From contig NC_018632.1 of the NCBI RefSeq assembly GCF_000172635.2, forward strand, positions 1,178,001 through 1,242,000: 64,000 nucleotides of DNA, given 5' to 3'. The DNA comes from Alteromonas macleodii ATCC 27126. Lineage in GTDB: Bacteria; Pseudomonadota; Gammaproteobacteria; Enterobacterales; Alteromonadaceae. This document shows, one piece after another, positions 27,511 through 44,684 of the stretch. Position 1 is the stretch's first letter. The number at the start of each line of letters is the position of its first letter. A program made the translations under genes and the position numbers. The notes beneath the pieces were generated by a model, which made no database searches, had not been told where the DNA came from, and saw only the letters and a program-made list of their open reading frames with translations.

Positions 27511-27553
27511 TCAGGCAGGGGCGAATGACTTTGCTTTGAATGCGATTTTCTAT

Positions 27554-27665
27554 GGTGGGCTTTTGGTCCTCCCGCAATGATACTCTGTGAACCCGGTCAG
27601 GCCTGGAAGGGAGCAGCCGCAGCAGACGACTCATGTGCCGGGATGTGGCTGGAGGCCCGCCACCC
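27554..27665 (+). ncRNA. ffs: 4.5S RNA (signal recognition particle RNA)
   Basis: About 112 bases. The apical loop sequence shared by bacterial SRP RNAs is present (GGTCAGGCCTGGAAGGGAGC, then AGCCGCAGCAGA), followed by TGTGCCGGGATGTGGCTGG. The ends GGTGGGC and GCCCGCCACC pair to close the rod. Partner of Ffh in cotranslational targeting to the inner membrane. Exact ends are estimated from pairing. It ends 7 bases from the stop of the convergent comFB-like gene. Confidence 0.95.
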
Positions 27666-27672
27666 AAATTCC

Positions 27673-27954: not shown

Positions 27955-28193
27955 GTTCATTCCCCTTATAATTGTTGTTGTTAGCGCCCTGCGTAAAAGT
28001 GCTGTGGTATGCAAATATGCTGTGCGGAAAATACAGCGCTTGTCCAATTAATTGGACACATTTTTATACAAGCTATATGGCACAACACGAACCTTGGCTA
28101 TATATCCTTATAATGTATAGCTTGTATTCTGTGGATGTCGAGTCGACGGTGATAGAATTACGAAGTTAAACAAAGCAATAAGGCAAGAACGAC

Positions 28194-29281
28194 ATGAAAA
28201 AAATATAGAGCCCTGCTACTACGGCGATTACCTACAGCTTGATAAGATTTTGGGGGCGCAGGACTTACAGAGTGAGAAGTACGGTGACGCGGCGCACGAA
28301 GAAATGCTGTTCATTATTGTTCACCAAGTTTATGAGCTTTGGTTTAAGCAGGTTCTTCATGAATTAAATGCAGTAATTGATACGTTTAATCAAGAAACAG
28401 TTAAAGATCAGCAGCTAACACTAGTGGTGCATCGCTTACAGCGAGTCATACAAATTCAAAAGTTAATGAACGATCAAATTGCTATCATGGAAACCATGAC
28501 GCCACAGCAGTTTTTGTCGTTTAGGGACTACCTGGTGCCCGCGTCGGGCTTCCAAAGTATACAGTTCAAGCGTTTAGAAATATCACTGGGCCTAAAGCGT
28601 GATTTCAGAATCGACTTTGATAAGCAAAGCTTCTACAACCGTCTGACTGATAAAGATAGAGCGTTATTGGAAACCCTTGAAAGCAAACCCAGTTTGTTTG
28701 AGCTGGTCGACAAATGGCTTTCAAGAATGCCGCTTCTAAAAACTGAAGGTTTCGATTTTTGGCAATATTATAAAGATGCGGCAGACGAAATGTTGAAAGA
28801 CGATCATCATACAATTTCAACCAGTGACATGCTATCTGATACAGAGCGGCGACAAGAGCTAAAAGACTTACAAGCAACGATGGAGAACTTTGATGCGTTG
28901 TTTGATGATACGCAGTTTGAAAAGTTAAGAGGCGAGGGCAAGTTCCGCTTAAGTCATAAAGCATTGCTTTCTGCATTATTCATAAAGCAGTATTCTGAAG
29001 AGCCTATCTTTAATCTGCCGTTCCAGCTTATTACCGCACTCACAGAGATAGACGAGCAACTCACTATATGGCGCTATCGTCACGCAATGATGGTTCAGCG
29101 CATGCTGGGCACTAAAATTGGCACTGGTGGATCGTCAGGACATCATTACCTCAAGAAAACCACTGAGTCTAATCGTATCTATTTAGACTTTTTTAACATG
29201 GCAACCTTCTTACTTCCCAAAAGTGCATTGCCAGAATTGCCTGAAACTGTAAGAAGACGACTGGGGTTTTATCTCCAATAG
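28194..29281 (+). CDS. kynA: Tryptophan 2,3-dioxygenase, with apparent -1 frameshift just after the start codon
   Basis: Heme enzyme that opens the indole ring of tryptophan to N-formylkynurenine. Conserved parts: YYGDYLQLDKILGAQ, HEEMLFIIVHQVYELWFKQ, and WRYRHAMMVQRMLGTKIGTGGSSGH with the heme-ligand His. The frame with YYGDYL has no ATG, GTG or TTG upstream before a stop. The ATG at 28194, with an AAGG-type site before it, begins ATG, seven A, then ATATAG, which stops after four codons. One more A would give M-K-K-N-I-E-P-C-Y-Y-G-D, an ordinary N terminus. So either a base is missing (sequencing or mutation) or ribosomes slip. Starting at TTG 28250 would delete conserved residues. Confidence 0.9.
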
Positions 29282-29373
29282 TTTGAAAAGTAAGCTTTTA
29301 TGCGTTTTTTCTTACTGTTATTCGTCGCATTTTTCTCTGCATGAAATTTAAACGTAAACAACAAAATCAGTAA

Positions 29374-29572: not shown

Positions 29573-32521
29573 ATGACGTTTAATAAAACGCTTACGGCGG
29601 TGGCTGTTGCCGCGTCGATGGGCCTCTCTGCGCCTGTATTCGCGCAAGAGTCCAAAGGTACAATTACTGGCACATCAGTATCAGCTAGTACAGAACAAGC
29701 TCTTGCAGGAGTAGAAGTTACTATTGTAAATCTGGAAACAGGGTTAACCAGAACTATTGTTACAGACAGTGACGGTAGATATACCTTTCCTCTTCTTCCA
29801 CCTGGCAATTATAGCTTAACCGCTAAAAAAGATGGCTTCTCTGTTGCGCAAGAAAAACAATTCAGTGTAAGGCCTTCAGGTAAAACAAATTTGGATGTCG
29901 CTCTCGAAGCGGGTGATATCGAAAGAATCTCTGTGCGTGGAACTTCAATTTCCAATATCGATGTGACTTCGAGTGAGTCACAGCTATATGTTGACCAAGA
30001 GTTTATATCTAAAGTTCCAGTACCTCGCGATATTTCTTCAGTAGCGCTACTTGCTCCGGGTACCGTTTCTGGTGATTCCGACTTCGGTAACTATGCTTCG
30101 TTTGGCGGTTCTTCAGTTGGCGAAAACGTTTACTATGTGAACGGTATTAACGTTACAAACTTCCGTAACGGATTGGGGGGCTCAGAGCTTCCATTTGAAA
30201 TGTACGAATCTTTCGAAGTAAAAACAGGTGGTTACTCAGCCGAGTTCGGGCGTTCAACAGGTGGTGTTATTAACGCACGGACCAAGAGCGGTAGCAATGA
30301 ATTCAAATGGGGAGCCAGCGCATATTACGAGCCAGCAGCCCTTAGAGCTCACCAGCCCGACGTATTCTACAGAACTCAAGAAGATGCAGAAGAGGCTGGA
30401 ACAGCCTATTACGTTGTTAACAAAGAAGACGAAACAGGTGAGACAAACGTCAACCTGTGGGCTTCTGGCGCGCTTATTGAAGACAAACTCTTTTTCTTCG
30501 GCTTAGTAAATCAAAAAGTACGTCAGCGTGATTACGCAGAGACTACAACGATCTACGACCGCGAAGGTAACGACACGTTACTCAGTGCAAAGCTTGATTG
30601 GTACATTACGCCCGAGCACATACTAGAATTTACGGCATGGGATAATACTGAAGAGCTAGAATCTGAAAAGTTCCTATATAGCCCAGATAGCGACAATGTG
30701 GGATCGTCGTTAGGTGAATATACGCTGGAGCGTGGCGGCACGACTTGGGGAGCTCAATATACAGGCATCATTACCGATGATCTTACCGTGAGTGCCAAAT
30801 ACTCGGTTAACAAAACGAGCTACAGCAATCTGAATAATGGCGCCAATCCGCTAGGTGATGCTCCGGTTATTTACGACAGATTTACCAACATAGAGTATGG
30901 CGCCTACGGCTTAACGACGCCTTCAGTTCAAGAAGATAAACGTACGGCTATTCGTTTTGACGTAGAGTGGTACGTTAATGCAGACCATGTCCTCAAAATT
31001 GGTATCGATAATGAGGACCTTGAGGCTTATGAAAATACTTCTCGCGCAGGTGGCGTTGCATACCGATATGAAAACTGTGGCGATAATCTAGATGAGCCGA
31101 GTAATGCAGACTGCCAAGTTCGCCAAGAGTTTTATGTAAACCAGGGCGACTTTGAGACCAAGAGCTTCGCTTATTATGTTGAAGATACTTGGACAGTGAC
31201 AGACAACATTACTGCAAGAATTGGTCTTCGTAATGAAACCTTCGAAAACTTTAACAAAGCCGGTGAAAAATTTGTTGATGTAAGCGATCAGTGGGCACCA
31301 CGTTTGGGCTTGAGCTGGGATGTAAAAGGTGACGGTGAGAGTAAAGTATTTGCAAACTACGGCCGCTACTATCTTCCAGTTGCGACGAATACAAATATTC
31401 GTCTTGCGGGTGATGAACTCTATACACGCCAGTATTTTGATGTTGAGTCAATAAATGATGATTTCACGCCTGTATTGGGCGAGGCTACTGGCAGTTTGAC
31501 GGTATACAGTGACGGTACGCTTAAAGGAACGACAGAAACAGTCAATGCCGACCTCGACCCTATGTATCAAGATGAATATATTCTGGGTTATGAGCAAGTC
31601 ATTAACGAATCTTGGAGCTTCGGTATTAAAGGGACTTACCGCGACCTGAAAAGCTCTCTGGAAGATATTGCTATCGATGCAGGCTTCGACGACTACATTC
31701 AACAAGAGTTTGGTTCATCGTGTACACTATGTTCTGGCTTCCATTATTATGTTTTAACAAACCCAGGCAACGATGTAACAATTACCACAGATCCAGATGG
31801 AGATGGTGATGTACCATACGGAACATACACTATTCCTGCTGATATGTTGGGTTACCCTGAAGCTGAACGTCAGTATGCCGCGGTTGATTTGACTGTTGAC
31901 CGAGCGTGGGATGATATTTGGATGATGAGCTTCACCTATACGTGGAGCCATAGTTGGGGTAACACTGAAGGTGCTGTTCGTTCTGATAATGACCAAACAG
32001 ATTCTGGTTTAACAACAAACTTTGACCAACCAGGCCTTCTTGATGGCGCATATGGTAATTTACCGAATGACCGCCGTCATGCTGTTAAACTAACAGGTGC
32101 TTACCAGCTCTTTGAGAACTTTACACTGGGAGCAAACTTCCGTTGGACATCAGGTAGACCACTTAACTCTTTTGGTTATCACCCAACAGATCTTTTCGCA
32201 AGCTACTATGATGCGGAGTCATTTGTAAAAGATGGTGAGTTAGTTTCTCGTGGCTCTGAAGGTCGTACGCCTAGTACTTGGACTTTGGATTTGAGTGCGA
32301 AATACCTTATTGAGCTAGAGCAAGCGGACGTAGCACTTCGTGCTGACATCTTTAACTTATTCAACAATGATGATGCTACTCAGCTTAACGAAATAAACGA
32401 GCGTTATGCTGGACAAAGTGATGAAGGTATATTCCTTGGAGAATACAACCCAAGTTACGGGTTGCCTACATCTTTCCAAACGCCACGTTACGTGCGCTTC
32501 AGTGTAGAAGTAAATTTCTAA
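29573..32521 (+). CDS. TonB-dependent receptor with N-terminal carboxypeptidase-regulatory-like domain (Oar-like)
   Basis: 982 residues. Signal peptide 1-25 ending VFAQ. A carboxypeptidase-regulatory-like beta-sandwich follows at about 28-105 (GVEVTIVNLETGLTRTIVTD, YTFPLLPPGNYSL). The TonB box region is near ERISVRGTSI, the plug domain at about 125-235, and then a long beta-barrel ending in FQTPRYVRFSVEVNF with the C-terminal aromatic residue needed for outer-membrane assembly. This layout is that of Oar-like receptors. Ligand unknown. A hairpin follows the stop directly, and a TPR-sulfotransferase gene begins 43 bases after it. Confidence 0.92.
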   Translation: MTFNKTLTAVAVAASMGLSAPVFAQESKGTITGTSVSASTEQALAGVEVTIVNLETGLTRTIVTDSDGRYTFPLLPPGNYSLTAKKDGFSVAQEKQFSVRPSGKTNLDVALEAGDIERISVRGTSISNIDVTSSESQLYVDQEFISKVPVPRDISSVALLAPGTVSGDSDFGNYASFGGSSVGENVYYVNGINVTNFRNGLGGSELPFEMYESFEVKTGGYSAEFGRSTGGVINARTKSGSNEFKWGASAYYEPAALRAHQPDVFYRTQEDAEEAGTAYYVVNKEDETGETNVNLWASGALIEDKLFFFGLVNQKVRQRDYAETTTIYDREGNDTLLSAKLDWYITPEHILEFTAWDNTEELESEKFLYSPDSDNVGSSLGEYTLERGGTTWGAQYTGIITDDLTVSAKYSVNKTSYSNLNNGANPLGDAPVIYDRFTNIEYGAYGLTTPSVQEDKRTAIRFDVEWYVNADHVLKIGIDNEDLEAYENTSRAGGVAYRYENCGDNLDEPSNADCQVRQEFYVNQGDFETKSFAYYVEDTWTVTDNITARIGLRNETFENFNKAGEKFVDVSDQWAPRLGLSWDVKGDGESKVFANYGRYYLPVATNTNIRLAGDELYTRQYFDVESINDDFTPVLGEATGSLTVYSDGTLKGTTETVNADLDPMYQDEYILGYEQVINESWSFGIKGTYRDLKSSLEDIAIDAGFDDYIQQEFGSSCTLCSGFHYYVLTNPGNDVTITTDPDGDGDVPYGTYTIPADMLGYPEAERQYAAVDLTVDRAWDDIWMMSFTYTWSHSWGNTEGAVRSDNDQTDSGLTTNFDQPGLLDGAYGNLPNDRRHAVKLTGAYQLFENFTLGANFRWTSGRPLNSFGYHPTDLFASYYDAESFVKDGELVSRGSEGRTPSTWTLDLSAKYLIELEQADVALRADIFNLFNNDDATQLNEINERYAGQSDEGIFLGEYNPSYGLPTSFQTPRYVRFSVEVNF

Positions 32522-32531
32522 ACAAGGTCGA

Positions 32532-32560
32532 AAGCCCAGCATAGTGCTGGGCTTCTTTTT
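32532..32560 (+). terminator. Terminator-like hairpin between receptor and sulfotransferase genes
   Basis: AAGCCCAGCA / TGCTGGGCTT, 10 base pairs, 3-base loop, then CTTTTTT. It ends only 4 bases before the next ATG, so the downstream gene must be expressed by read-through and has no space for a normal leader. Confidence 0.85.
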
Positions 32561-32564
32561 TACT

Positions 32565-34046
32565 ATGAATCATCTATTGCAAAAGTTAGTTTCAGCCTCA
32601 AAATCAGTCAATAAGTCACAGGTTGAGGCGATAGTTAGCGACTTAATCAACTTACAAGCACCTTTACAAGAAAGATGGGTTGGAGTAGGGCAAATAGCAA
32701 AATCGTTTGGCAGTTATAGACTAGCTAAGCGCTGTATCGAAAAAGCGCTTGAACAAAGCCAAAGTGATCAAATGGTCGCGCAAGCCTTGGGAATGCTCTC
32801 TGATTTAGGAAAAACCGAGTTGGCATACGAATACCTGCAGTCTATCGGCAACAGAGTGTCGTCGTCTGTAGTGCTATTACACTTAAAAGGAGTACTCGCT
32901 TATCAACTGGGTTACTTCACTCAAGCAAAGCAGTCGCTTAGAGAAGTCTTAATAAAAGTCCCAACGTCAGGGGAAACACTCCACTTATTATCAACGATGT
33001 CTGATACAGAGGAAGCAAAAGAGCTACAGAAGGAACTAGATACCTTATTATCTAGCATGGACAAGGCCCCTTTATCAGTGTCCAAAGCATGCTTTTACAA
33101 CGCCTTAGGGAATACCTACCTAAAAACCTCCGAAGTGGTTACCGCTTACCAATATTTTGAAAAGTGCGCAGAAACCATGCGAGCGATCTCACCAAAGGAT
33201 AAGTCATTTGATTACTCATTAATTGAGGATTGGAGAAACGAGAACGTTGAGTGCGCAGAGGTTAAACCTTCTAACTTCACAGACGAAAGTGTTTCAACGA
33301 AAAGCTCTCCAATTTTTATTTTGGGAATTCCTCGAACTGGAACAACGCTTGTAGAACAAGTCATCATTCAAAATACAGAAGCGCAGAGTGTGGGGGAAAT
33401 AGATGCCTTTCCGATGGCAGTAGATAACGTATTAAAAACTAAAAATGCTCTAGAGCGCCTAAAAACACTCGCTCTTTTAGATGAAGAAAAATGCAGTATG
33501 ATAGCTGACGAGTATTTTAAGATTTGTAGCGAATATGGGGTATCAAATGCCCTGATCGTTGACAAAAGCTTAAGTAACTTGCGATATGCTTATGCAATCA
33601 AGCACGTTTTTAATAAAGCAATCTTTGTTGTCACCAAAAGAAATGAAATTGATAACGCATGGTCAATATTCAAGACGCAATTTAGTAATAGTTTACATTG
33701 GTCTTGGGATATTAGAAAAATAAAAAGTTTTATTGATAATGAGTCTAGATTAGCGAAAATTTTGGCTAATTCTAAAGAGGTAGCACCAATAGTAATACAG
33801 CTAGAAACCTTGCAAGACCAGCCACAGGAAAAAATAAAACAAGTAATTAATAGGGTTTACCAAAAGCAAGGCGCTACTCGTGAGACTGAGTTGCTATCTT
33901 TACCTCCATATGAAGCAGGAAAAGTAGATACAACAGCAGTAAGAACTGCAAGTATGTATCAGGCTCGACAGCCGATAAGCAGCGACCATGCACACTCTAA
34001 AAATATCCCCCCCAAGTTCGAAAAAACATATTCAGAAATTCATTAG
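32565..34046 (+). CDS. TPR-repeat sulfotransferase-family protein
   Basis: 493 residues from the ATG at 32565. N-terminal helical repeats of TPR type (about 20-225; for example AKRCIEKALEQS, YLKTSEVVTAYQYFEKCAE). A sulfotransferase domain from about 248 carries the 5'-phosphosulfate loop GIPRTGTTLVEQ (254-265) and the PAPS-binding region near VVTKRNEIDNAWSIF. Bacterial members resemble protein-tyrosine sulfotransferases and use PAPS; acceptor unknown. No signal peptide. No Shine-Dalgarno is visible because the terminator hairpin lies immediately upstream. It follows an Oar-like TonB receptor gene. Confidence 0.85.
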   Translation: MNHLLQKLVSASKSVNKSQVEAIVSDLINLQAPLQERWVGVGQIAKSFGSYRLAKRCIEKALEQSQSDQMVAQALGMLSDLGKTELAYEYLQSIGNRVSSSVVLLHLKGVLAYQLGYFTQAKQSLREVLIKVPTSGETLHLLSTMSDTEEAKELQKELDTLLSSMDKAPLSVSKACFYNALGNTYLKTSEVVTAYQYFEKCAETMRAISPKDKSFDYSLIEDWRNENVECAEVKPSNFTDESVSTKSSPIFILGIPRTGTTLVEQVIIQNTEAQSVGEIDAFPMAVDNVLKTKNALERLKTLALLDEEKCSMIADEYFKICSEYGVSNALIVDKSLSNLRYAYAIKHVFNKAIFVVTKRNEIDNAWSIFKTQFSNSLHWSWDIRKIKSFIDNESRLAKILANSKEVAPIVIQLETLQDQPQEKIKQVINRVYQKQGATRETELLSLPPYEAGKVDTTAVRTASMYQARQPISSDHAHSKNIPPKFEKTYSEIH

Positions 34047-34383
34047 TAGAGTATTTGAACTGTAAGCGGCCGTCATCGATTTTGCTGTTCGCCGCATAGA
34101 TGAGTTCATTAAACTTTAGTCTTGGTTTGAAGTGTATGAAAAGTGAGCTAAAAAAGCTTGGTATTGTAAAGTATATGTAAAATGTAAGTTAATATTTACA
34201 GATTAGAGTTAAAAGACAAAAAAAAATTGAACTTTTGTGAAACACCCGTCTGATCCCAGTTGACCCTTCGCACAGGATGTGGTTATTATCAAAGTGAGGC
34301 TTTGACCTTACTAATAATAATTCGTTATATAAACGATTTAAGAAACACACACTAAGAGTTTTAGTGGTCCAGGGAGACAATAC
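34047..34383 (+). promoter_or_regulatory. Promoter region of the second TonB receptor
   Basis: 337 bases without a gene. Two sigma-70-like candidates: TTGACC at 34260-34265, 18-base spacer, TATTAT at 34284-34289; and TTGACC at 34302-34307, 17-base spacer, TTATAT at 34325-34330. A strong GGAGA ribosome-binding site precedes the receptor ATG. No terminator was recognised for the sulfotransferase gene. Confidence 0.5.
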
Positions 34384-37221
34384 ATGTTTACAAACTCTAA
34401 GCTGGCTAAATCAGTGAAGTTAGCGTGCGCATTCGGTGCTGCATCATCTATCGGCTTCACTGGTGCAGTTAACGCACAGGAAACCGAACAAGCAGCGGAA
34501 GCAGTAGAAAAAATCGAAGTAACAGGTTCACGTATCCGTCGTACAGACATCGAAGGTGCAAACCCAGTTACAGTAATGTCTCGAATCGACATTGAGCGAT
34601 TTGGTGTAACGTCTATCGGTGACGTTCTTCAGGCTATCCCTTCTGCAGGTTCTGCTATTAACACCAACAACAACAACGGTGGTAATGGTACAACTACAAT
34701 CAACATTCGTGGTATCGGTTCAAACCGTACTCTTGTTCTAGTTAACGGTAAACGTTGGGCTCCAGGTCTTGGCGGTTCAGTTGACCTTAACAACATCCCA
34801 GCAGCAATTATCGAGCGTATCGAAGTACTTAAAGATGGTGCTTCTGCTGTATACGGTTCTGACGCGGTAGCTGGTGTTGTAAACATCATCACTCGTCAAG
34901 ATTTTGAAGGCGTTCACGCGTCTGGCTACATGGGTCAGTACGATGAAGGCGACGGCAACAAAGAGCAGTGGGATGTTGGTTTCGGTACTTCAAACGATAA
35001 AGGTAACGTTTACTTCAACATTTCTTACGTAGAAGAAGAGCCAACATTCACGGGTGACCGTGAAATTTCAGCTGTGCCTGTATTCGGTGCACCTACTGGC
35101 TTCGGTGGTTCATCTGGTACGCCTAACGGTCGTTTCTGGTACTTCGATGAAGACGGTACTTCATTCAACGTACAAAATGACGGTAACGGTGGTCTAATTC
35201 CTTGGTCTGGAAGCAGCGCTTTCAACTTCGCGCCACTTAACTACCTATCAACACCTCAAGAGCGTACAAACATTTACTCTCAGGGTCGTTACGAGCTTAC
35301 AGATAACCTAAGTGTTAACGTTACGGGCTTCTACGGTAACCGTCGTTCTGCACAGTTGCTTGCTCCTACACCATTATTCTTAGGTTTTGCTGGCGGTACT
35401 TCTGGTATCACTATCGCTGCAAACAACCCATATAACCCAACTGGTCTAGACCTATCTGACCAAGCTGGCTTCGGCGAGCCAAATGGCCTATATTTCCTAG
35501 GTCGTCGTATGCTAGAAGCTGGTTATCGTCAATTCGCTCAAAACGTTGACCAATACCAATTTAACGGTGGTTTTGAAGGCGTTATTGAAATCGGCGATAA
35601 AGAGTTCTTCTGGGACGCGACTTACACGTACGCTGATATCACACAAAACACGTTGACTGACGGTCTGCTTAACATGGACCGCGTTGCATTGGCACTAGGC
35701 GATGTTGACGCATGTAACAATTCAGACGACGGCTGTGTACCACTTAACCTATTTGGCGGCGCAACTGCTATCGGTGAAGGTACTATCACGCAAGATCAAT
35801 TAGACTACATCACGTTTACTGCACAGGATGCGTTGAACTCTTCTTTAGAGAGCTACACTGCTAACCTTTCTGGTGAAATCATGGAGCTACCTGCGGGTTA
35901 CCTTGCTTTCGCAACAGGTTATGAAAAACGCTGGCAGTCTGGTTACGATCAGCCTGACGCGCTAATCGCAGCGGGTATTACTTCTGGTAACTCTCGTCAG
36001 CCAACTTCAGGTGACTTCAGCGTTGAAGAATTCTACCTAGAGCTTGCTGTTCCTCTACTTTCAGATATGCCTGGCGTAGAGCAACTAGACCTTGAACTAG
36101 CGACTCGTTACTCTGACTACAGCAACTTTGGCGATACAACAAACTCTAAAGTTGGTCTTAAGTGGCGTGTAAACGAAGACTTAATCGTTCGCGGTACATG
36201 GTCTGAAGCGTTCCGTGCTCCTTCACTATCAGAGCTATTCTTGGGTAACAGCGATAGCTTCGTTACACTTCAAGACCCTTGTAACGGTGGTGAGGCAGGA
36301 AATCCAAATGCACCAGGTTGTGCGGGAATCCCTGCTGGTTACCAACAGCCTAACCCACAGATCAGAACTACCGTTGGTGGTAACGCTGACCTACAGCCTG
36401 AAGAAGCAGAGAGCTTTACATACGGTTTCGTATACTCTCCAGCACAAGTTGAAGGCCTATCAATCACGTTTGACGTATTTGATATCGAAGTTGACAATGC
36501 AGTATCAACTGTTGGCGCGCAAAGCATCCTAGATGCGTGTGCTGAAACTGGTACGCAATTCTGTTCACTAATCGAACGTAACTCTGGTGGTGTTGTAACT
36601 GAGCTATTCAACGGTCTTGTGAACCTTGGTGGTCAAACAACATCTGGTTTCGATTATAACGTTGCTTATAACTTCGAAACTGAGTTTGGTGACTTCCGTC
36701 TTAACTGGGATGGCACATATGTAGACGAGCGTACAACAATTGTTGTTGACCCTGTAAGCGGTGAAACAATTGAAGAAAACGACGCTGGCCGTGCATTTGA
36801 CCGTGACGTAATTCCACGTCTTCGTACTAACCTGTCTGTTACTTGGGCATACGAAGATTGGACTGCGAACTACCTAGTACGCTTCATTGGTCACACAACT
36901 GAAGAATGTTCATTCGGTACTTCTACAGATGCAGATGGTAACTACCTAGAAGATACACTATGTAGCGATCCAGGTGAGACTACATTTGATGATGACGGTA
37001 ACCTAGTTAAAGATAGCTTCAACGAGCTTGAAGATATGGCTTACCACGATGTGTCTGTTGGTTATGCAGTTACTGATAACCTTCGTCTAACGCTTGGTGT
37101 TAACAACCTTTGGGATACTGACCCAGAAGTTTCTTTCACTACGTTCGCGAACAGCTTCGACCCATCAATGTATGAAATCCCTGGAAGATTCTTCTACGGT
37201 CGTGTAAATCTTGAATTCTAA
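34384..37221 (+). CDS. TonB-dependent receptor, large
   Basis: 945 residues. Signal peptide ends near Ala31 (GAVNAQ), then a TonB-box-like EKIEVTGSRIRR. The plug domain (about 55-170) has INIRGIGSNRTLVLVNGKRW and VYGSDAVAGVVNIITR. A 22-strand-type barrel follows, with the C-terminal IPGRFFYGRVNLEF ending in Phe. It resembles the large receptors abundant in Alteromonadales. Codon choice is strikingly uniform (GGT, CGT, AAC, CTA), unlike the accessory genes after it, which suggests very high expression. Ligand unknown. Confidence 0.93.
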   Translation: MFTNSKLAKSVKLACAFGAASSIGFTGAVNAQETEQAAEAVEKIEVTGSRIRRTDIEGANPVTVMSRIDIERFGVTSIGDVLQAIPSAGSAINTNNNNGGNGTTTINIRGIGSNRTLVLVNGKRWAPGLGGSVDLNNIPAAIIERIEVLKDGASAVYGSDAVAGVVNIITRQDFEGVHASGYMGQYDEGDGNKEQWDVGFGTSNDKGNVYFNISYVEEEPTFTGDREISAVPVFGAPTGFGGSSGTPNGRFWYFDEDGTSFNVQNDGNGGLIPWSGSSAFNFAPLNYLSTPQERTNIYSQGRYELTDNLSVNVTGFYGNRRSAQLLAPTPLFLGFAGGTSGITIAANNPYNPTGLDLSDQAGFGEPNGLYFLGRRMLEAGYRQFAQNVDQYQFNGGFEGVIEIGDKEFFWDATYTYADITQNTLTDGLLNMDRVALALGDVDACNNSDDGCVPLNLFGGATAIGEGTITQDQLDYITFTAQDALNSSLESYTANLSGEIMELPAGYLAFATGYEKRWQSGYDQPDALIAAGITSGNSRQPTSGDFSVEEFYLELAVPLLSDMPGVEQLDLELATRYSDYSNFGDTTNSKVGLKWRVNEDLIVRGTWSEAFRAPSLSELFLGNSDSFVTLQDPCNGGEAGNPNAPGCAGIPAGYQQPNPQIRTTVGGNADLQPEEAESFTYGFVYSPAQVEGLSITFDVFDIEVDNAVSTVGAQSILDACAETGTQFCSLIERNSGGVVTELFNGLVNLGGQTTSGFDYNVAYNFETEFGDFRLNWDGTYVDERTTIVVDPVSGETIEENDAGRAFDRDVIPRLRTNLSVTWAYEDWTANYLVRFIGHTTEECSFGTSTDADGNYLEDTLCSDPGETTFDDDGNLVKDSFNELEDMAYHDVSVGYAVTDNLRLTLGVNNLWDTDPEVSFTTFANSFDPSMYEIPGRFFYGRVNLEF

Positions 37222-37252
37222 TTCAATGATTGCATAAGATTTTCAAAAATTT

Positions 37253-37277
37253 AAAGGCCTCGTAAGAGGCCTTTTTT
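37253..37277 (+). terminator. Terminator-like hairpin after the second TonB receptor
   Basis: AAAGGCCTC / GAGGCCTTT with loop GTAA and a T run, ending 13 bases before the GTG start of the next gene, whose GGAGA site lies directly after the T run. Confidence 0.88.
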
Positions 37278-37290
37278 GTAGGAGAATATT

Positions 37291-38421
37291 GTGAAGAGCA
37301 TTGAACAACTCCTGACAAAAGCAGATTTGCATTTTCAAAGGAACGAATACAGTCAAGCTTATGATTGTTTACGCATTGCTGGTCAGTCAGGACATTTGTA
37401 TGCCGCATTAGACTACGCTTATCACATCGCACCAAATAGCCCCAAAGCAGCTATCGACTATCTGAGCGCATTACCAGACAACTCAAAACCTACTGTAAGG
37501 TTTCACTGTTTACTCATTTCACGGTTTTATCTATTTAAAGAAATGAATTATGAGCTGGTGAGTGAGCTCGTCAGGCTTGCTTCAGCAGGGCATGCAGAGT
37601 CCTTAATTGTATTACTTAGTTGGACTGAGCAAAACACATCGGTTTACGCTCAATTGAAGGGTACATTAGGTCGCCATAATCCCAACATTTATCGTCAATT
37701 GTTTATGGGAGACCCTAATTACGCCGATGTTTCTACGTCTTTATGTGAAGATACAATCATCACCACGGTACTTGAAAAGCAAACCTCGCTACTAGATAAA
37801 ACTAAAACTGCTGTTGATAGCAACGGTATCGTTTGTGAAATGAGCGGCGTACTGTCAGATATTGAATGTGACTACATGCTTCTTCGATACAAAAGTTTAC
37901 TTCAGCCATCTATGGTTCTAAATCCATTGAATGGTAATCCCATGAAAGATGATATTCGCACGAGTGAGGTCGCTATTATCACTAATCAATGGGTAGATTG
38001 GATAAGTCGCGAAGTAGAAGTGAAGATGAGCCGTATGTCTGATACAAAACCTCAGCATGGTGAACCACTAAATTTACTGAGATACAAAGATGGCCAAGAA
38101 TACAAACCGCATTATGATGGGTTTACTGATACTCAACTAAAGCAAACCAGTATTATTGAAGAGGGAGGCCAGCGCACCCATACGATATTGGCATACTTGA
38201 ATTCATTGAGTGAGGGCGCTACTCACTTTCCCAAGTTAGGAATAACGATCTATCCAGAAAAGGGAAAGCTGGTGAGTTTTCTTAATGTTGATAAAAATCT
38301 GGCGCTAGAAAAACAGAGTTATCATTGTGGCCAACCTGTCTCTACAAATGAGAAATGGATGCTTACAAAATGGGTGAGGCTAAATTCTACTCAGTATGGT
38401 AATTTAGTCCATGGAAGTTAA
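37291..38421 (+). CDS. 2OG-Fe(II) oxygenase, prolyl-4-hydroxylase alpha-subunit-like
   Basis: 376 residues, GTG start with TAGGAGA 6 bases upstream. The N-terminal half (1-175) has helical Sel1/TPR-like repeats. The C-terminal half is a P4H-type double-stranded beta-helix: GVLSDIECDYMLLRY opens it, the iron ligands are His274 and Asp276 (PHYDGF) and His345 (YHCGQP), and Lys355 (EKW) should bind 2-oxoglutarate. It would hydroxylate a peptidyl residue, but the substrate is unknown. No signal peptide, so it acts in the cytoplasm. It follows a highly expressed receptor gene. Confidence 0.87.
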   Translation: MKSIEQLLTKADLHFQRNEYSQAYDCLRIAGQSGHLYAALDYAYHIAPNSPKAAIDYLSALPDNSKPTVRFHCLLISRFYLFKEMNYELVSELVRLASAGHAESLIVLLSWTEQNTSVYAQLKGTLGRHNPNIYRQLFMGDPNYADVSTSLCEDTIITTVLEKQTSLLDKTKTAVDSNGIVCEMSGVLSDIECDYMLLRYKSLLQPSMVLNPLNGNPMKDDIRTSEVAIITNQWVDWISREVEVKMSRMSDTKPQHGEPLNLLRYKDGQEYKPHYDGFTDTQLKQTSIIEEGGQRTHTILAYLNSLSEGATHFPKLGITIYPEKGKLVSFLNVDKNLALEKQSYHCGQPVSTNEKWMLTKWVRLNSTQYGNLVHGS

Positions 38422-38447
38422 ACCAAATATTTTTTCAAGGAAGCGAT

Positions 38448-38726
38448 ATGAAAACATTAATTCTTTCAGGTATGTTGAGTGTTATAGCATTAGCAGGTTG
38501 TAGCTCTACCTCTTCAAATGCAAGTTCTTCTACCGAGCAAGCAAGCAACAACATAGCTAGCAGTAAAGATGATGGCATGGTGTGTAAGATGGAGCGAAAA
38601 GTCGGTTCAAATATGATGCGCCGAGTTTGCTATACAGCAGAAGAAAGGGAAATGATGGAAGAGGCCGCACGCGAAAGCTGGACTCGTATGCAAAGAGGGA
38701 CTGAAACTTCAGGCTCAGGCTTGTAA
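38448..38726 (+). CDS. Small lipoprotein of unknown function
   Basis: 92 residues. Lipobox LAGC with Cys18, then a Ser/Asn-rich linker to about residue 45. A short conserved-looking core follows with two cysteines 16 residues apart (VCKMERKVGSNMMRRVC) and an acidic helical tail EEREMMEEAARESWTRM. I do not recognise a named family. The V-G-S-N-M-x-R-R-V-C pattern recalls small exported proteins of Alteromonadales. AAGGAAG ribosome-binding site. Lies between two oxygenase genes. Confidence 0.75.
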   Translation: MKTLILSGMLSVIALAGCSSTSSNASSSTEQASNNIASSKDDGMVCKMERKVGSNMMRRVCYTAEEREMMEEAARESWTRMQRGTETSGSGL

Positions 38727-38733
38727 TGTGAAC

Positions 38734-38757
38734 GAAGGCTACTATAAAGTAGCCTTC
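38734..38757 (+). other. Terminator-like hairpin between the lipoprotein and aspartyl hydroxylase genes
   Basis: GAAGGCTAC / GTAGCCTTC, 9 perfect base pairs, loop TATAAA, then TCGTTTC, a poor T run. It starts 8 bases after the lipoprotein stop and ends 24 bases before the next ATG. Confidence 0.65.
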
Positions 38758-38781
38758 TCGTTTCTAACGCTACTTATTAAA

Positions 38782-39740
38782 ATGACAAAGCAAATTGAAC
38801 AAGCCCTTAAACAACAGAATTTTGATCTCGCTACAGCGCTTTATTTAGAGTGGTACGAATCTTCTCCCCTAGACTTCAATATCGAAGGTAGCCAGCCTTC
38901 ACGTGTTAAAGCTACACATATTTCTAACGCCGCAAATCTAGCGCGAAGAGCAGGTTTCAACGAACTGCAGTTTGTTAAAGATATATCTCCGCGATTAGGT
39001 GAAATGGTCAAAGTTTTGTTTGGTCTTGCACAACCTTCTTTTCAAACCCGCTTCAACGACCTAATTTTGTTTATATTCCTGAGCTTACCAGTAAACCGTT
39101 TTACGATATTCAGGAATGTGAAGGATTAAAGAGTTGGATACAGACATTGCAGCCTTTTATAGATGAGTTGTTGGATATAGGCAAAGTATCAAAAAGCAAA
39201 TATGTTGAAGAGTTTGAAAATCTACCGAATTTGGAAGAGTGGAACAAGCTAAGAGATGAATGGCTCTCTACCCATCTAATAAAAGGTGGGGAGCACAGTG
39301 AAGTGTTTAAATCGTTAAGTGAACCGCTTCGTGAAGTATTGGAAAGGGCACCATTGGCGCATTGTCCACCTCATGCACCTGAAATGTTTGTTTCTGTGCT
39401 AGAGCCTGGGGCATACATCCCTCCGCATTACGGAATTTCAAATTGTAAGCTTACCGTGCATATACCTTTAAAAGTCACAAAACATGCATCGTTGAAAGCG
39501 GGAGACGAAATATTCAAGTGGGAAAATGAACAATCCGCGATGATCTTCGATGATAGCTTTCTACATTCCGCAAAAAATGAGAGCGATGAAGTAAGAATTG
39601 TGCTCATTTTTGATATATGGCATCCAGACTTATCTTCGTTAGAAAAGGAAGGATTGGCAAAGTTTATGACAAAATTTGCTGTCTGGAACAATGGGGTAGG
39701 TAAGTTAGCTAACTTAGATGCACAGTTACGAAGAAAATAA
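38782..39740 (+). pseudogene. Aspartyl/asparaginyl beta-hydroxylase-like 2OG oxygenase, broken by one -1 frameshift
   Basis: Two frames make one protein of about 319 residues. The first, from ATG 38782, is a TPR-like N terminus (MTKQIEQALKQQNFDLATALY...) to about 39050. The second carries RPNFVYIPELTSKPFYD and the whole catalytic domain. The frames join if TTTT in CCTTCTTTTCAAACCCG (about 39040-39056) had a fifth T. The catalytic part closely follows AspH: PPHYGISNCKLTVHIPL with His at 39426 and Gly in place of the Asp ligand, FDDSFLHSA with the second His at 39564, and IVLIFDIWHPDL. Sequencing error, recent mutation or slippage are all possible. A separate start at ATG 39147 would retain the oxygenase domain. 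Confidence 0.82.
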
Positions 39741-39747
39741 TAATAGT

Positions 39748-41532
39748 ATGAATATAGTACAACAGCTCGTCTCAGCTTATAACCAGAAGCAATATCAGCA
39801 GATTATCCAATTTATTGAGAAGCAGTTATTTCTGTTGCAAAAAGACCCAGTATTTATTCAACTATTCTGTGGCTCGCTTCGCCAAGTTCAGCGAGTGAAA
39901 GAAGCTGAGAAATATTTAGTAAAAGGGCTGAAGAAATTTAAAAATCACCCCGAATTATCAAATGCTTTAGGTAATTTATACCTATCCACTCGGCGAATTG
40001 ACTTGGCAGTATCGACCTTTCAAAAGTCGAGTGAATTAGCGCCTAATAATGTTGATTTAAACTATAATTTGGCACGTGCACTAATTGAAAAAAATGCGTT
40101 AAAGCAAGCGCGTATAGCAGCAGAAAAAGTTCTAGCGTTAGTGCCGAATCACGTGCAAACGAAGCTAATTATGGCAGACATTTTTTCGAAGCAATCAGAC
40201 TTTAATGAAGCCATAATCGTCTTAAAAGATGTCTTAGCTATTAGTCCAGAAAATATTGTTGCTTTGAACAATATCGCCAATTTGTATCGCAAAATTGAAG
40301 ACTATGAACAAGCATTAAAGCATTTTGAATTAGCGCTTTCTAAAACTAATGCTAACCCTACTATTTTAAGAAATTATGCAGCAGTACTCGCGCTATCAAA
40401 TCAAAGAGAGCGCGCGGAAATGGTGTATCTGAAAGCATTGAAAGTTGCACCATCTGATTGGGAGCTTCAGGAGGAGCTGGCCAAGTTTCTATGGGAAGAG
40501 GGAGTTGATGCGCCATTTGTTCATATTGAGTCATATATCAAACGACAACCTGAAGACGATAGCTTCAGGTTTCGTTTTATTCAGTTGCTAATACAAGCCG
40601 ACGAATATCATGCGGCAAAAGAGCAATTAGACTTACTTACTACAGAAGCAATTAAGACTCACGAAATTGCGCCATTGAGGGCCAGAGTGCTCAGAGAACT
40701 AGGTGACTATGAGGCTTCTATTGTTGAAATAGAAAATGCCAAAATACAGTCAAATAAAGTGGCGCTATTAAGTGAGAAGGGCTATTCGCTGCTTTGTTTG
40801 GGGCGCGCAAAAGAAGCACTCAACTGCTTCAACCAATTGATAAAAATAGAACCACTAAACCAAGGTTGGTGGACAATGTTATCTACATGTTGGTCTATGG
40901 CCGAACAAGAAAACCGTTATAAATGGTTGTGCGACTATGACAAGCTTGTTTACGTTAACGCTATTAAACCTAGTCCAGTTGATACTGCTAATTTCAATGA
41001 AAAACTAAAAACTGCCCTTGTAGAAAAACATCAGAATCAACGGCATCCTATTGGACAATCATTGAAGAATGGGACGCAAACATATGAAGATTTATTCGTC
41101 ACATCCTTACCTATCATTAAAGAATTGTCGGAAAACATTTTAGCGCAGGCAAAACTATTTACCGCGCAACAGTGTGCAGACAAAACCCATCCGTTTTTAT
41201 CACGGTTAAGCGATAAGCTTAAATATATCGGTTCTTGGTCAGTAAGGTTAAGAAATGGAGGCTTTCATAAGTCTCACTACCATCCAGAAGGATGGTTAAG
41301 CGGCGTTTACTATGTGGATGTGCCTAAAGCCGTTGATACGGATGGGCAAGGCTGGTTGATGTTTGGTAGGGCTGATATTGCGAATCAACGATTTGAAGGG
41401 GATTATGCAGTCAAACCCGAAGGGGGGACGGTCGTTCTGTTTCCATCATACATGTGGCACGGTACTAACGCTTTTACCACTGATGAACACAGATTAACCG
41501 TTGCCTTCGATATTATTCCAAACGAAAACTAA
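39748..41532 (+). CDS. TPR-repeat 2OG-Fe(II) oxygenase (PF13759-like)
   Basis: 594 residues from the ATG at 39748, 7 bases after the previous stop; an ATG at 39718 would overlap the upstream gene. About twelve TPR-type helical repeats span residues 1-400 (for example NALGNLYLSTRRIDLAVSTFQKSSELAPNN). The C-terminal oxygenase domain has GGFHKSHYHPEGWLSGVYYV with His507, His510 and His512, a downstream His571 (YMWHGTNAF), and HRLTVAFDI supplying the Arg for 2-oxoglutarate. The TPR part is expected to hold a protein or peptide substrate. No signal peptide. The same architecture as the neighbouring TPR-sulfotransferase, with another catalytic domain. Confidence 0.87.
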   Translation: MNIVQQLVSAYNQKQYQQIIQFIEKQLFLLQKDPVFIQLFCGSLRQVQRVKEAEKYLVKGLKKFKNHPELSNALGNLYLSTRRIDLAVSTFQKSSELAPNNVDLNYNLARALIEKNALKQARIAAEKVLALVPNHVQTKLIMADIFSKQSDFNEAIIVLKDVLAISPENIVALNNIANLYRKIEDYEQALKHFELALSKTNANPTILRNYAAVLALSNQRERAEMVYLKALKVAPSDWELQEELAKFLWEEGVDAPFVHIESYIKRQPEDDSFRFRFIQLLIQADEYHAAKEQLDLLTTEAIKTHEIAPLRARVLRELGDYEASIVEIENAKIQSNKVALLSEKGYSLLCLGRAKEALNCFNQLIKIEPLNQGWWTMLSTCWSMAEQENRYKWLCDYDKLVYVNAIKPSPVDTANFNEKLKTALVEKHQNQRHPIGQSLKNGTQTYEDLFVTSLPIIKELSENILAQAKLFTAQQCADKTHPFLSRLSDKLKYIGSWSVRLRNGGFHKSHYHPEGWLSGVYYVDVPKAVDTDGQGWLMFGRADIANQRFEGDYAVKPEGGTVVLFPSYMWHGTNAFTTDEHRLTVAFDIIPNEN

Positions 41533-41538
41533 ACGTAG

Positions 41539-42096
41539 TTACATTTTTTCTAGCTTAAACGCCAGGGTGTAGCGGGGCGTGTAACAAATTCTATTGGGCG
41601 GTCTACCGACGTGTTTGATCGCACCATGGAAAATTGCAACACGAGCAGGTTTTGGTGTGCACGCGAATAAGCAATCGTCGTTGTTGTCATAGAACAACGT
41701 TTCTCCTCCCCACTCAATGTCCCATTCAGGTGCAATATAAACCAAAACAGTGAACTCATTCGCATCAGGTGCACAATCTGTGTGCGTAAAAAGCATATCT
41801 CCATACGATGCGTGATTCACATATCCTCTATAAGCACTAAAATCTTGTTTTGTAATACCGCGAATGGCCTCAATCGCTCTGTGGTATACGGGGAGGGTTC
41901 TAATTTGCTCAGATGTTAGATTCACTGCCCAATGCCGATATTCTTGTGTATCAGGTCTAGCAATTTCGTCTCGCTTGAACGCGCTTACTTGTAAACCTTT
42001 GAATAAGCTTTCCGCTTCTGCCTGAGTACAAAGGTCGTCGAAGATCCACAGGGGTTTGTTCTCAATCGTAATGTGGTGAGTTGGCGTGAATGTCAT
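41539..42096 (-). CDS. 2OG-Fe(II) oxygenase superfamily protein
   Basis: 185 residues. Single double-stranded beta-helix domain: iron ligands His105 and Asp107 (FTHTDCAPD) and His162 (IKHVGRPP), and Arg175 for 2-oxoglutarate (TPRYTLAFKL). WGGETLFYDNNDD is the usual strand pair before the distal His. It resembles small P4H-like enzymes (PF13640 type). Convergent with the TPR-oxygenase, leaving 6 bases between stop codons, so the two transcripts should overlap at their ends. No signal peptide. Confidence 0.85.
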   Translation of the reverse strand: MTFTPTHHITIENKPLWIFDDLCTQAEAESLFKGLQVSAFKRDEIARPDTQEYRHWAVNLTSEQIRTLPVYHRAIEAIRGITKQDFSAYRGYVNHASYGDMLFTHTDCAPDANEFTVLVYIAPEWDIEWGGETLFYDNNDDCLFACTPKPARVAIFHGAIKHVGRPPNRICYTPRYTLAFKLEKM

Positions 42097-42547
42097 TGCA
42101 TACTCGTCTGTATTTTGGATTTTTCATGAAGTTTATATGATTAGCCCTTCTTTTAATAGCAAGTAACATCTAGGTTAAAAATCATATCTAATTTCTGCGA
42201 GTAGCCAGAAATGCGCGCTGAGAAATTGTTAAATAAATTTGGTAATTGATTATTAGTTAATCGATTAAGGTGTCAGTGATGCTCCATTCTTGTTTGATGT
42301 CATTATTTTGGAATGAAATCTGCACTGCTAATGAACACAAATTAGGCAGACGGAATGAAATCTACTAGGTGTAAACAGTGTGTTACTTGACTAAACGTAA
42401 CATTCCATGTGAGTATAATACGTTCGTAGTACTGACAATTGACGTCGGCGCTACATTCCTGAAACAAAATTGTGAAAGTTTTATACGCCCCTTGCCCGAA
42501 TATTTTCCTATCGGCGAGGATTCAAATAAGAAATTTGGTTGGGAACT
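42097..42547 (+). promoter_or_regulatory. Control region of the TonB2-type operon with a tandem 12-base repeat
   Basis: 451 bases without a gene. GGAATGAAATCT occurs exactly twice, at 42310-42321 and 42352-42363. The copies start 42 bases apart, four helical turns. Between them CTGCTAAT and ATTAGGCAG can pair with one bulge (42327-42351). A TATAAT lies at 42414-42419; the best -35 (TTGACT, 42387-42392) is 21 bases away, longer than optimal, which would suit an activator. The divergent oxygenase gene starts at 42096. Confidence 0.5.
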
Positions 42548-43318
42548 ATGTCCAAAATGAGCAAGAGAACTCTTATTGCTTCTACTGTTATGGGTGCATT
42601 CGCACTAACAGGTAGCGCAGTCTCTGCAGATACGCTTGAAGATCTTCATAAAGAAGAAGCGAAAATCCACGCGGCTGCAGCGAAATCTCAAGAAAAAATC
42701 AATACGTTGTTTGAACAGTCTCAAGAACTACTTGTTGAGTATCGTCAAACAGTAGATGAGACAGAAAACCTTAAAATCTACAACGATTACATCGCAAGCC
42801 TAGTTGCAGACCAGCAACGCGGTATCGATTCATTACAACGTCAGATCGACAGCATCGAACAAACTAAGCAGGGCATCGTTCCTCTTATGTTCCGCATGAT
42901 CGACAGCCTAGAGCAGTTCATCAAGCTAGACCGTCCAATTCACTTAGACGAGCGTCTACAGCGTGTTGAGCGTCTTCGCGACCTTATGGCTAACTCTAAC
43001 GTAACTGTTTCAGAACAGTTCCGTCAGGTACTAGAAGCTTACCTAGTAGAAGTTGAATACGGTACTAAGATCAACTCTTACCAAGGTACTATCGACGACG
43101 CAGGCACAGAAGTTACTGTTGACTTCTTTAACCTAGGTCGTACGGCGCTAGTTGCACTTTCTCTAGACCAAACTCACGCATGGGTATGGAACAACGAAAG
43201 CCGCGCATGGGAAAAACTGGGTGACGAGTATCTGTCTTCAGTTGTTGACGCAGTTAAAATGGCTAACAACGTCATTCCTGCGGATCTGATTAAACTACCA
43301 ATTAGCGCAGCGGAGTAA
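42548..43318 (+). CDS. DUF3450 periplasmic coiled-coil protein of a TonB2-type system
   Basis: 256 residues from ATG 42548 (GGGAAC just upstream; ATG 42557 is also possible). Signal peptide of about 27 residues ending SAVSA. A long coiled coil follows at about 30-110 (LHKEEAKIHAAAAKSQEKI...), then a small C-terminal domain with SLDQTHAWVWNNESRAWEKL. DUF3450 genes regularly head TtpC-ExbB-ExbD-TonB operons in marine gammaproteobacteria; the protein is thought to act with TtpC, but its mechanism is not settled. Six bases to the ttpC start. Confidence 0.9.
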   Translation: MSKMSKRTLIASTVMGAFALTGSAVSADTLEDLHKEEAKIHAAAAKSQEKINTLFEQSQELLVEYRQTVDETENLKIYNDYIASLVADQQRGIDSLQRQIDSIEQTKQGIVPLMFRMIDSLEQFIKLDRPIHLDERLQRVERLRDLMANSNVTVSEQFRQVLEAYLVEVEYGTKINSYQGTIDDAGTEVTVDFFNLGRTALVALSLDQTHAWVWNNESRAWEKLGDEYLSSVVDAVKMANNVIPADLIKLPISAAE

Positions 43319-43324
43319 TTGTTA

Positions 43325-44683: not shown

Positions 44684-44684
44684 T

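Follow-up and report, generated by a model that had tools for sequence, protein, structure and literature searches.

TonB receptors and clade-matched enzymes are swapped as sets at a replacement-type island in Alteromonas

The island of TonB receptors and oxygenases in Alteromonas macleodii ATCC 27126 is one allele of a genus-wide exchange slot that lies between a tryptophan dioxygenase gene and a DUF3450-TtpC-ExbB-ExbD-TonB operon. The slot is a replacement-type island: TonB receptors are swapped along with clade-matched enzymes of protein-modifying families, behind a promoter, leader and signal peptide that mostly stay the same, beside a TonB energiser operon. Our analysis covers a 64-kb stretch of this genome (the window). 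The gene positions and families assigned in an earlier, sequence-only reading agree with the open reading frame (ORF) list, Pfam and NCBIfam, and the energiser operon does begin directly downstream of the island, at 42539. The features are as follows.

28250–29281, forward strand: tryptophan 2,3-dioxygenase (TDO; PF03301), the upstream edge of the slot
29573–32521, forward strand: TBDR1, a type A TonB receptor (Pfam CarboxypepD_reg, OMP_b-brl_4 and plug)
32522–32564, forward strand: terminator-like hairpin at the TBDR1/sulfotransferase junction (hairpin detection)
32565–34046, forward strand: TPR-sulfotransferase (PF13469 and TPR; its profile matches protein-tyrosine sulfotransferase)
34165–34480, forward strand: conserved head of TBDR2, running from the promoter-like block through the leader and start to the signal peptide (matches to relatives, alignment)
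34384–37221, forward strand: TBDR2, a TonB receptor of the P4H-cassette clade (PF00593, PF07715; tree)
37222–37290, forward strand: terminator-like hairpin at the TBDR2/P4H junction (hairpin detection)
37291–38421, forward strand: P4H-like 2OG oxygenase with N-terminal helical repeats (PF13640; model of P4H fold)
38448–38726, forward strand: small lipoprotein (lipobox recognised by eye)
38728–39740, forward strand: AspH-type oxygenase gene, split by a frameshift into ORFs 38728–39129 and 39147–39740 (PF05118 on the second piece)
39718–41532, forward strand: TPR-2OG-FeII_Oxy_5 oxygenase (PF13759 and TPR)
41539–42096, reverse strand: FlmC-like 2OG oxygenase, the second PF13640 protein
42358–42404, no strand: range in which homology resumes in eight compared loci, the downstream edge of the slot (DNA comparison)
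42539–47500, forward strand: energiser operon DUF3450-TtpC-ExbB2-ExbD2-TonB2-TPR (ORFs; gene order kept in relatives)

The gene names in the energiser operon are those we take to apply from recognition of the sequences. The longest ORF of the TPR-sulfotransferase spans 32544–34046, and its likely start is the ATG near 32565, giving about 493 aa. Upstream of the island lie genes of aromatic amino-acid catabolism (ORFs, Pfam).

One correction to the earlier reading is that the island is no combination confined to a single strain: alleles of the same slot recur genus-wide at 56 slot loci (58 genus relatives; G023, G043 and G049 left out where an orthologue was missing or a contig edge intervened). 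The neighbourhood survey it had proposed, with absence of recurrence as the contrary outcome, thus finds recurrence beyond ATCC 27126. TonB receptors are present at 54 of the 56 loci, accompanied by enzymes at 47 and by no labelled enzyme at seven, as labelled with HMMs that were themselves made from the slot clusters; the families behind these labels were named by Pfam for cluster representatives only, ORFs came from a simple caller, and contig ends truncate the slot loci L039, L056 and L092. One slot (L084) is exceptional in containing unrelated genes. With it set aside, 219 of 224 slot ORFs of at least 150 aa fall into receptor or enzyme clusters, so that few candidate substrates besides the receptor are left. 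The enzymes of other alleles include a methyltransferase, sulfotransferases, DUF6445 and SEC-C enzymes. Upstream homology ends at 29220–29285 in seven of the eight loci compared as DNA, mostly near 29,280, and downstream homology with near relatives restarts near 42,370. The last receptors are less than 50% identical in 72 of 100 pairs despite flanks at least 95% identical. Related genomes carry differing content at the same place between homologous flanks, as replacement islands do. Among the titles and abstract openings of open-licence papers, the scope of our literature search (subscription papers lay outside it), we recognised no description of this combination or slot.

The exchanged receptors share a head. 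In the window, the TBDR2 head (34165–34480) matches relatives that carry unrelated receptors, and its promoter-like block has TTGACC at 34260 and TATTAT ending at 34289. In an alignment of 62 upstream regions, the promoter, leader and signal peptide ahead of the last receptor are for the most part kept from allele to allele; a 15-base leader core is exact in 50 of 69 slot loci. As a structured RNA, the leader yields only a four-pair helix in RNAalifold, and Rfam has no match in it. Hairpin stems ahead of the ribosome site average 6.8 pairs against 5.3 in shuffles (44 sequences), with little compensatory change. At the other end of the receptor gene, terminator-like hairpins occur at 53 of 55 receptor-enzyme junctions and at 3 of 50 enzyme-enzyme junctions (1.4 and 0.4 expected from shuffles; junctions labelled by the slot-derived HMMs), and before P4H in 12 of 12. 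These counts come from a second detector, chosen after the result of the first was known, which allows shorter stems and adds the shuffle control. The first detector gave 33/55 and 2/50, with 3/12 before P4H; it missed hairpins because A-T pairs consumed the T run. One hairpin scan gives the 37222–37290 hairpin solely for the minus strand, as A-T pairs lengthen its stem. The hairpins at receptor-enzyme junctions suggest that enzymes are produced at a low level through read-through.

The enzyme set tracks the receptor clade in the tree. The receptor family of the window occurs with P4H, AspH, the TPR-2OG oxygenase and FlmC, and other clades are paired with a methyltransferase, sulfotransferases, DUF6445 or no enzyme. 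The cassette is also found in Rheinheimera and Arsukibacterium with no energiser operon beside it, and related mixtures occur in Halioglobus and two MAGs. TBDR2 distances correlate with those of P4H, AspH, TPR-2OG and FlmC after removal of the TtpC distance (partial r 0.88, 0.69, 0.84 and 0.82, with AspH in the window genome represented by its N-terminal piece). They are also correlated with the flanks (r 0.86 for TDO and 0.80 for TtpC), and linkage alone can make neighbouring genes co-diverge. Mean distances are larger for the enzymes (0.63, 0.60 and 0.60) than for the receptor (0.25), which is not obviously expected if the enzymes read a conserved receptor. Outside the genus, a receptor lies close to the PF13759 gene at 20 of 35 loci of the TPR-fused type and at 0 of 25 of the TPR-less type; where a genome has both types, the counts are 5/9 and 0/8. 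These loci, labelled by the same HMMs, come from a longer listing, from which members of the genus, one 368-aa locus and two proteins of the short family that sit in long frames were omitted. Elsewhere in the A. macleodii genome, sulfotransferases and PF13640 oxygenases are not enriched near receptors (2/8 outside the island).

These patterns bear on a rival account of the slot, namely that it is a recombination hotspot and nothing else, where flanks and a conserved head permit exchange of receptors and enzymes that do not cooperate. That exchange takes place at the slot is plain, and L084 fits such an account; slot content is otherwise limited to two functional kinds, however, enzyme sets track receptor clades, the cassette stays together elsewhere, PF13759 genes of the TPR-fused type lie beside receptors throughout the phylum, and the junctions are operon-like. 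We regard mere exchange as highly improbable. That receptors and enzymes form a linked system is strongly supported, and here the earlier proposal holds up through recurrence, clade-matched sets, junctions and co-divergence; the system is more modular than was first seen, with methyltransferases, DUF6445 and SEC-C enzymes among its parts. The swapping of receptors with matched enzymes of protein-modifying families suggests that the receptors, or something that they handle, need chemical modification to work.

Catalytic residues named in the earlier reading are largely borne out by alignment. His274, Asp276, His345 and Lys355 of the P4H-like protein and His105, Asp107 and His162 of the FlmC-like protein are invariant (11 sequences each). 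The histidines of the TPR-2OG oxygenase are invariant too (11 sequences), renumbered as His517/His520/His522 and His581 from the longer ORF start. Alignment, model (pLDDT 92) and structure search place the P4H-like HxD...H...K motif within a double-stranded beta-helix fold, as in prolyl 4-hydroxylases; a scan of genome contigs with P4H alone confirmed no relative. FlmC is the nearest NCBIfam family for the 41539–42096 product, with a score under the cut-off (NF052475). Neither the P4H nor the FlmC-like protein of the window matches PF18331 (PKHD_C) at E 0.1; the PiuC-like protein of this genome, used as a control, does so at 5e-19. For AspH, the family is right and His216, Gly218 and His262 (P0121 numbering; 23 sequences) are invariant. 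A second correction to the earlier reading is that the window gene is broken across two frames. Slot relatives encode a single ORF of 314–337 aa, and a 319-aa protein, 94% identical, exists. The Asp_Arg_Hydrox domain lies on the second piece, with HxG...H seen in relatives; glycine in place of aspartate is normal in AspH enzymes. The enzyme families are mostly polypeptide-directed, the nearest structures being peptide-binding P4H, human AspH and protein-tyrosine sulfotransferase. By eye, the island enzymes lack signal peptides.

The TPR-sulfotransferase belongs to Sulfotransfer_3, and its profile finds 8w5z (TPST) at 1e-20; no other sulfotransferase appears in the best 60 of 399 matches. As a single sequence it has no significant match to TPST, and a structure search with the single full sequence found nothing. 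It follows type A TBDR1, presumably an Oar-type receptor, in 5 of 5 cases, a pairing drawn from two distinct lineages; TBDR1A and the sulfotransferase recur next to different TBDR2 cassettes between similar flanks (two loci, L034 and L036), and at L097 another TBDR1 type is paired with a divergent sulfotransferase. Tyrosine is not over-represented among type-A-specific TBDR1 residues (11/48 against 261/829 overall, with L097 and L103 left out of the comparison group), a weak test that assumes a tyrosine acceptor, and a sulfation-site signal was accordingly dropped as support. An AlphaFold2 model of TBDR2 was poor (pLDDT 50) and set aside.

We propose, as a reading about evenly balanced between right and wrong, that the cytosolic enzymes modify a putative substrate, the cognate receptor, ahead of its export. 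Receptor and enzymes would share one transcript, and the hairpin 3' of the receptor gene would pass part of transcription, giving much receptor and little enzyme. The TPR or other helical repeats on several enzymes could hold unfolded polypeptide in the cytosol, where P4H, AspH, TPR-2OG and FlmC would hydroxylate, and the TPR-sulfotransferase sulfate, the cognate receptor before Sec export; in other alleles it would be methylated at this stage. The modified receptor would then work with the adjoining TonB system. Among the window proteins, P4H, TPR-2OG and FlmC (joined by AspH in relatives) would act on TBDR2, and the sulfotransferase on TBDR1. Modification may be required for ligand binding or gating, or may change what phages and bacteriocins see. 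Slot content, clade matching, the cassette outside the slot, co-divergence, PF13759 loci, hairpins, enzyme families and the CciT-CciO precedent count in favour. Against it count the tyrosine test, the 7/56 enzyme-free slots, the two-lineage TBDR1A link, the flank correlations and enzyme divergence, together with the broken AspH, the 2/8 elsewhere in the genome and the production of CciT without CciO.

The main rival is that the enzymes act on a ligand, making, activating or breaking down an imported peptide-like or iron-binding molecule, as proposed for CciO, PiuC and YbiX. The accessible text on CciT-CciO models substrate synthesis or oxidation, or inhibitor removal (PMC12004947), and that on PiuC proposes metabolism of an imported siderophore drug (PMC12004943); clade-matched enzyme sets fit ligand specificity equally, and the upstream catabolic genes could fit peptide uptake. 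Among ORFs of at least 150 aa in the 56 genus slots, however, there is no recurring synthetase, permease or peptidase family, several enzymes bear TPR repeats and belong to polypeptide-directed families, and sulfation of a nutrient would be costly. Ligand chemistry appears somewhat unlikely. A quite improbable alternative is that another exported protein is modified, either the small lipoprotein or one moved by the carboxypeptidase-regulatory-like TBDR1. The lipoprotein lies within the cassette and is labelled in 12 of 56 genus slots, but it is absent from the other 44, many of which have enzymes, and no other recurring small protein was seen among slot ORFs of at least 70 aa. A RiPP biosynthesis cluster would call for a recurring small precursor gene next to its tailoring enzymes, and in this size range the lipoprotein is the one small product seen to recur.

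In its general form, pre-export modification of receptors would constitute a dedicated maturation system, in which often TPR-bearing cytosolic enzymes hydroxylate, sulfate or methylate TonB receptors and cassettes are traded behind one promoter-leader-signal-peptide head; we advance this only tentatively. If correct, it would bring modification by several chemistries into the biology of outer-membrane receptors and account for TonB receptors that adjoin oxygenases, sulfotransferases, methyltransferases and halogenases of unexplained role. Oxygenases such as CciO/PiuC and the halogenases linked to receptors would then belong to a single general way of customising receptors chemically, one that has so far gone unrecognised, with a bearing on what CciO, PiuC and YbiX do. 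The slot offers a natural experiment, closely related strains holding different receptor-enzyme alleles in the same place.

The closest known arrangement is CciT-CciO (likewise PiuA-PiuC and Fiu-YbiX), where, in the text available, a TonB receptor gene adjoins a cytosolic 2OG/Fe(II) oxygenase gene, as in the window. Caulobacter CciT strictly requires CciO for receptor function (PMC12004947, PMC12004943, accessible parts); CciT protein is produced without CciO, and the authors prefer ligand or inhibitor models (PMC12004947, accessible part). CciT-CciO, as described there, involves one PKHD-type oxygenase in Fur-regulated iron uptake, whereas the window has several enzymes with no PKHD_C match, includes a sulfotransferase and exchanges them along with the receptor. 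A PKHD-type (PiuC-like) enzyme does occur in this genome as well, beside another receptor. Peptide-directed prolyl 4-hydroxylases and AspH share fold and catalytic residues with the window enzymes; the window P4H differs in its helical-repeat N-terminus and linkage to TonB receptors. Flavin halogenases of this genome are another amino-acid-modifying family tied to receptors (6/8 Trp_halogenase genes have a receptor within 5 kb, compared with 15% at random), at other loci and with other chemistry. For BrvH, a halogenase of this broad family, the available part of its paper states only that indole may not be the natural substrate; it makes no mention of TonB and does not bear out a link of BrvH to receptors. 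Replacement flexible genomic islands of Alteromonas, as described in the accessible text (PMC4033161), resemble the slot in occupying the same location with functionally similar, differing contents, homologous flanks and surface-exposed products. Those named there are polysaccharide, flagellum-glycosylation and giant-protein loci, TonB being absent from that text, whereas the unit exchanged here couples a receptor to modifying enzymes behind a constant head.

All the genes that the sequence-only reading had named between tryptophan 2,3-dioxygenase (TDO) and the TonB energiser operon are present. The island and its surroundings are laid out in the window as follows.

23775-29281, aromatic amino-acid catabolism genes, upstream of the slot
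27561-27657, small bacterial SRP RNA (Rfam RF00169)
28250-29281, TDO, upstream edge of the island
34165-34480, promoter, leader and signal peptide (the head) of TBDR2, the second of the two TonB receptors; conserved across slot alleles with unrelated receptors
38728-39740, AspH gene, disrupted by a frameshift relative to intact relatives, with its pieces in two frames
from 42539, DUF3450-TtpC-ExbB-ExbD-TonB operon, downstream side of the island

TDO was identified from Pfam, and the same gene group (23775-29281) includes what we take, from sequence recognition, to be fumarylacetoacetase and maleylacetoacetate isomerase; these catabolic genes are mostly kept beside the slot in relatives. Catalytic residues of the 2OG oxygenases (P4H, AspH, TPR-2OG and FlmC-like) are invariant in alignments of relatives. 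AspH is a single reading frame in slot relatives, an intact 319-aa protein exists at 94% identity to that of the window, and a search of this genome (a single 4.65-Mb contig with 64 receptor-barrel matches) found no second AspH-domain gene; the split may be real decay or a sequencing error.

The island proves to be one allele of a slot that recurs across the genus, which bears out and extends the original observation. A P4H query of 146 genomes, including this one, retrieved full-length relatives in 13 others, 12 of which keep the order TBDR2-P4H-(lipoprotein)-AspH-TPR-2OG upstream of the DUF3450 operon. The thirteenth, genome G012, keeps TBDR2, lipoprotein, AspH, TPR-2OG and FlmC in its slot (locus L059), where P4H survives only as fragments with stops; an intact P4H relative sits elsewhere in that genome (L041). 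Locating slots through TtpC gave 56 genus loci, including that of the window, and 13 from other genera. Among the former, a receptor is present in 54 and an enzyme in 47; seven hold receptors without an enzyme, one is empty (L082) and one carries unrelated genes (L084); with L084 set aside, receptor or enzyme clusters account for 219 of 224 reading frames of at least 150 aa. Slots of other genera hold a receptor in 11 cases and an enzyme in 8. Representatives of further slot clusters include a Methyltransf_25 methyltransferase (below the cut-off), 2OG-FeII_Oxy_4, Methyltransf_24, DUF6445, and sulfotransferase and AspH-type enzymes bearing SEC-C motifs. The DUF3450 gene of genome G013 (L038, 14903-15681) is present as two reading frames, a possible frameshift.

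The slot is a site of exchange. DNA homology to the window ends at 29,220-29,285 in seven of eight loci compared; in the eighth (L035), which shares TBDR1, it runs on to 32,605. Homology is regained at 42,358-42,404 in all eight. Last receptors are less than 50% identical in 72 of 100 genome pairs whose TtpC is at least 95% identical, in 149 of 177 at 90-95%, 182 of 221 at 85-90% and 1358 of 1518 below 85%: relatedness between genomes has little bearing on whether they carry the same receptor allele.

When 72 slot receptors are arranged in a tree, enzyme sets track receptor clades, the last members of a set varying somewhat. One clade of 14 receptors goes with P4H, AspH, TPR-2OG and FlmC, except that 2OG-FeII_Oxy_4 replaces FlmC in two and the slot P4H is absent in one; others carry methyltransferase, TPR-2OG and 2OG-FeII_Oxy_4, TPR-2OG alone, DUF6445, or no enzyme. 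TBDR1 receptors of type A precede a TPR-sulfotransferase in 5/5 cases, representing only two distinct lineages, and among 20 other TBDR1-like proteins in the tree one (L097) precedes a divergent sulfotransferase. Across 19 loci with TBDR2 and the P4H enzyme set, TBDR2 distance correlates with that of P4H, AspH, TPR-2OG and FlmC (r = 0.85, 0.66, 0.84 and 0.87; partial r with TtpC distance removed, 0.88, 0.69, 0.84 and 0.82), and also with TDO (0.86) and TtpC (0.80). Mean enzyme distances (0.63, 0.60, 0.60 and 0.34, respectively) exceed that of TBDR2 (0.25). Recurrence and clade-matched enzyme sets thus support the proposed linked system as a genetic unit.

The association extends beyond the slot. 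An AspH profile run on named genomes gave 26 loci; a labelled receptor was absent from 12 of the 23 listed. In Rheinheimera baltica and Arsukibacterium perlucidum, four genes lie between the cassette and TDO, and no DUF3450 operon occurs within the downstream stretch examined; in Halioglobus and two gammaproteobacterial MAGs, receptors are accompanied by mixed combinations of these enzyme types. Phylum-wide, a receptor lies within the examined stretch at 20 of 35 loci of TPR-fused PF13759 (the TPR-2OG family) versus none of 25 TPR-less loci (Fisher, 8e-7); within genomes encoding both kinds the counts are 5/9 versus 0/8 (p = 0.03). In two Kangiella loci (L125, L126), adjacent FlmC-like and AspH-like genes lie beside an 864-868-aa reading frame. 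In the window's own genome, six of eight tryptophan halogenases have a receptor no more than 5 kb away, versus 15% at random; no such tendency is seen for the sulfotransferases and PF13640 oxygenases that lie outside the island (2/8). One receptor-near flavin halogenase also adjoins the genome's DUF6445 gene. Elsewhere in this genome, a shorter P4H-like oxygenase (L047, G000:C1:682000-701999, at 8959-9759) is encoded upstream of both a TonB receptor and another DUF3450-TtpC-ExbB-ExbD operon, and a further receptor is followed directly by a 653-aa TPR-sulfotransferase (L044, 4195-9036).

Receptor-enzyme and enzyme-enzyme junctions differ in layout. A terminator-like hairpin lies within 90 bases of the receptor stop at 53 of 55 receptor-enzyme junctions (1.4 expected from shuffles) and occurs at 3 of 50 enzyme-enzyme (0.4 expected) and 20 of 32 receptor-receptor junctions; a stricter first detector scored 33, 2 and 14, respectively. 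The median gap is 65 bases at receptor-enzyme versus 3.5 at enzyme-enzyme junctions. In the window, hairpins follow both receptors, one ahead of the sulfotransferase and one ahead of P4H, with hardly any promoter room beyond, an arrangement from which we infer that the enzymes are made by low-level read-through. In an alignment of 62 loci, a promoter-like block is conserved upstream of the last receptor, as is a leader that ends in GTGGTCCAGGGAGACAA; the N-termini listed resemble MFTNSKLAKSVKLACAFGAAS, though the receptors are mostly ~30% identical. DNA at ~34,175-34,577, covering the sequence ahead of TBDR2 and its 5' end, matches in five of six compared loci whose last receptor is unrelated. 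The exact 15-base leader core is present in 50 of 69 slot loci, and a 20-base leader motif has a single match in this genome at a tolerance of up to three mismatches. A conserved promoter motif published for an Alteromonas sRNA also takes in two TonB receptors (PMC5864184).

The predicted P4H structure, of high confidence (pLDDT 92), comprises ~170 residues of helical repeats followed by a prolyl-4-hydroxylase fold. The closest structure to this fold is that of an algal enzyme in complex with a (Ser-Pro)5 peptide, and the second closest that of a bacterial P4H for which modification of EF-Tu has been reported. AspH matches human AspH; the sulfotransferase profile matches protein-tyrosine sulfotransferase, to which single sequences match weakly. 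Because these three families act mostly on polypeptides, and the receptor is the polypeptide that recurs with them, we favour the receptor itself as substrate. A tyrosine test for a sulfation target in TBDR1 was negative. The enzymes may instead act on a ligand or inhibitor, as proposed for the nearest precedent, the Caulobacter receptor-oxygenase pair CciT-CciO, for which published models place the cytosolic oxygenase on ligand or inhibitor (PMC12004947, PMC12004943). Modification of the receptor, the favoured reading, is a directly testable hypothesis.

In searches of an open-licence library, judged from titles and opening lines of abstracts, we recognised no description of the combination, a slot in which receptors and multi-chemistry enzymes matched to their clade are exchanged as one, with a conserved head in front. 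Both of its parts belong to known kinds: receptor-oxygenase pairs on the one hand and replacement islands on the other, the slot behaving like the published replacement flexible genomic islands of Alteromonas (PMC4033161).
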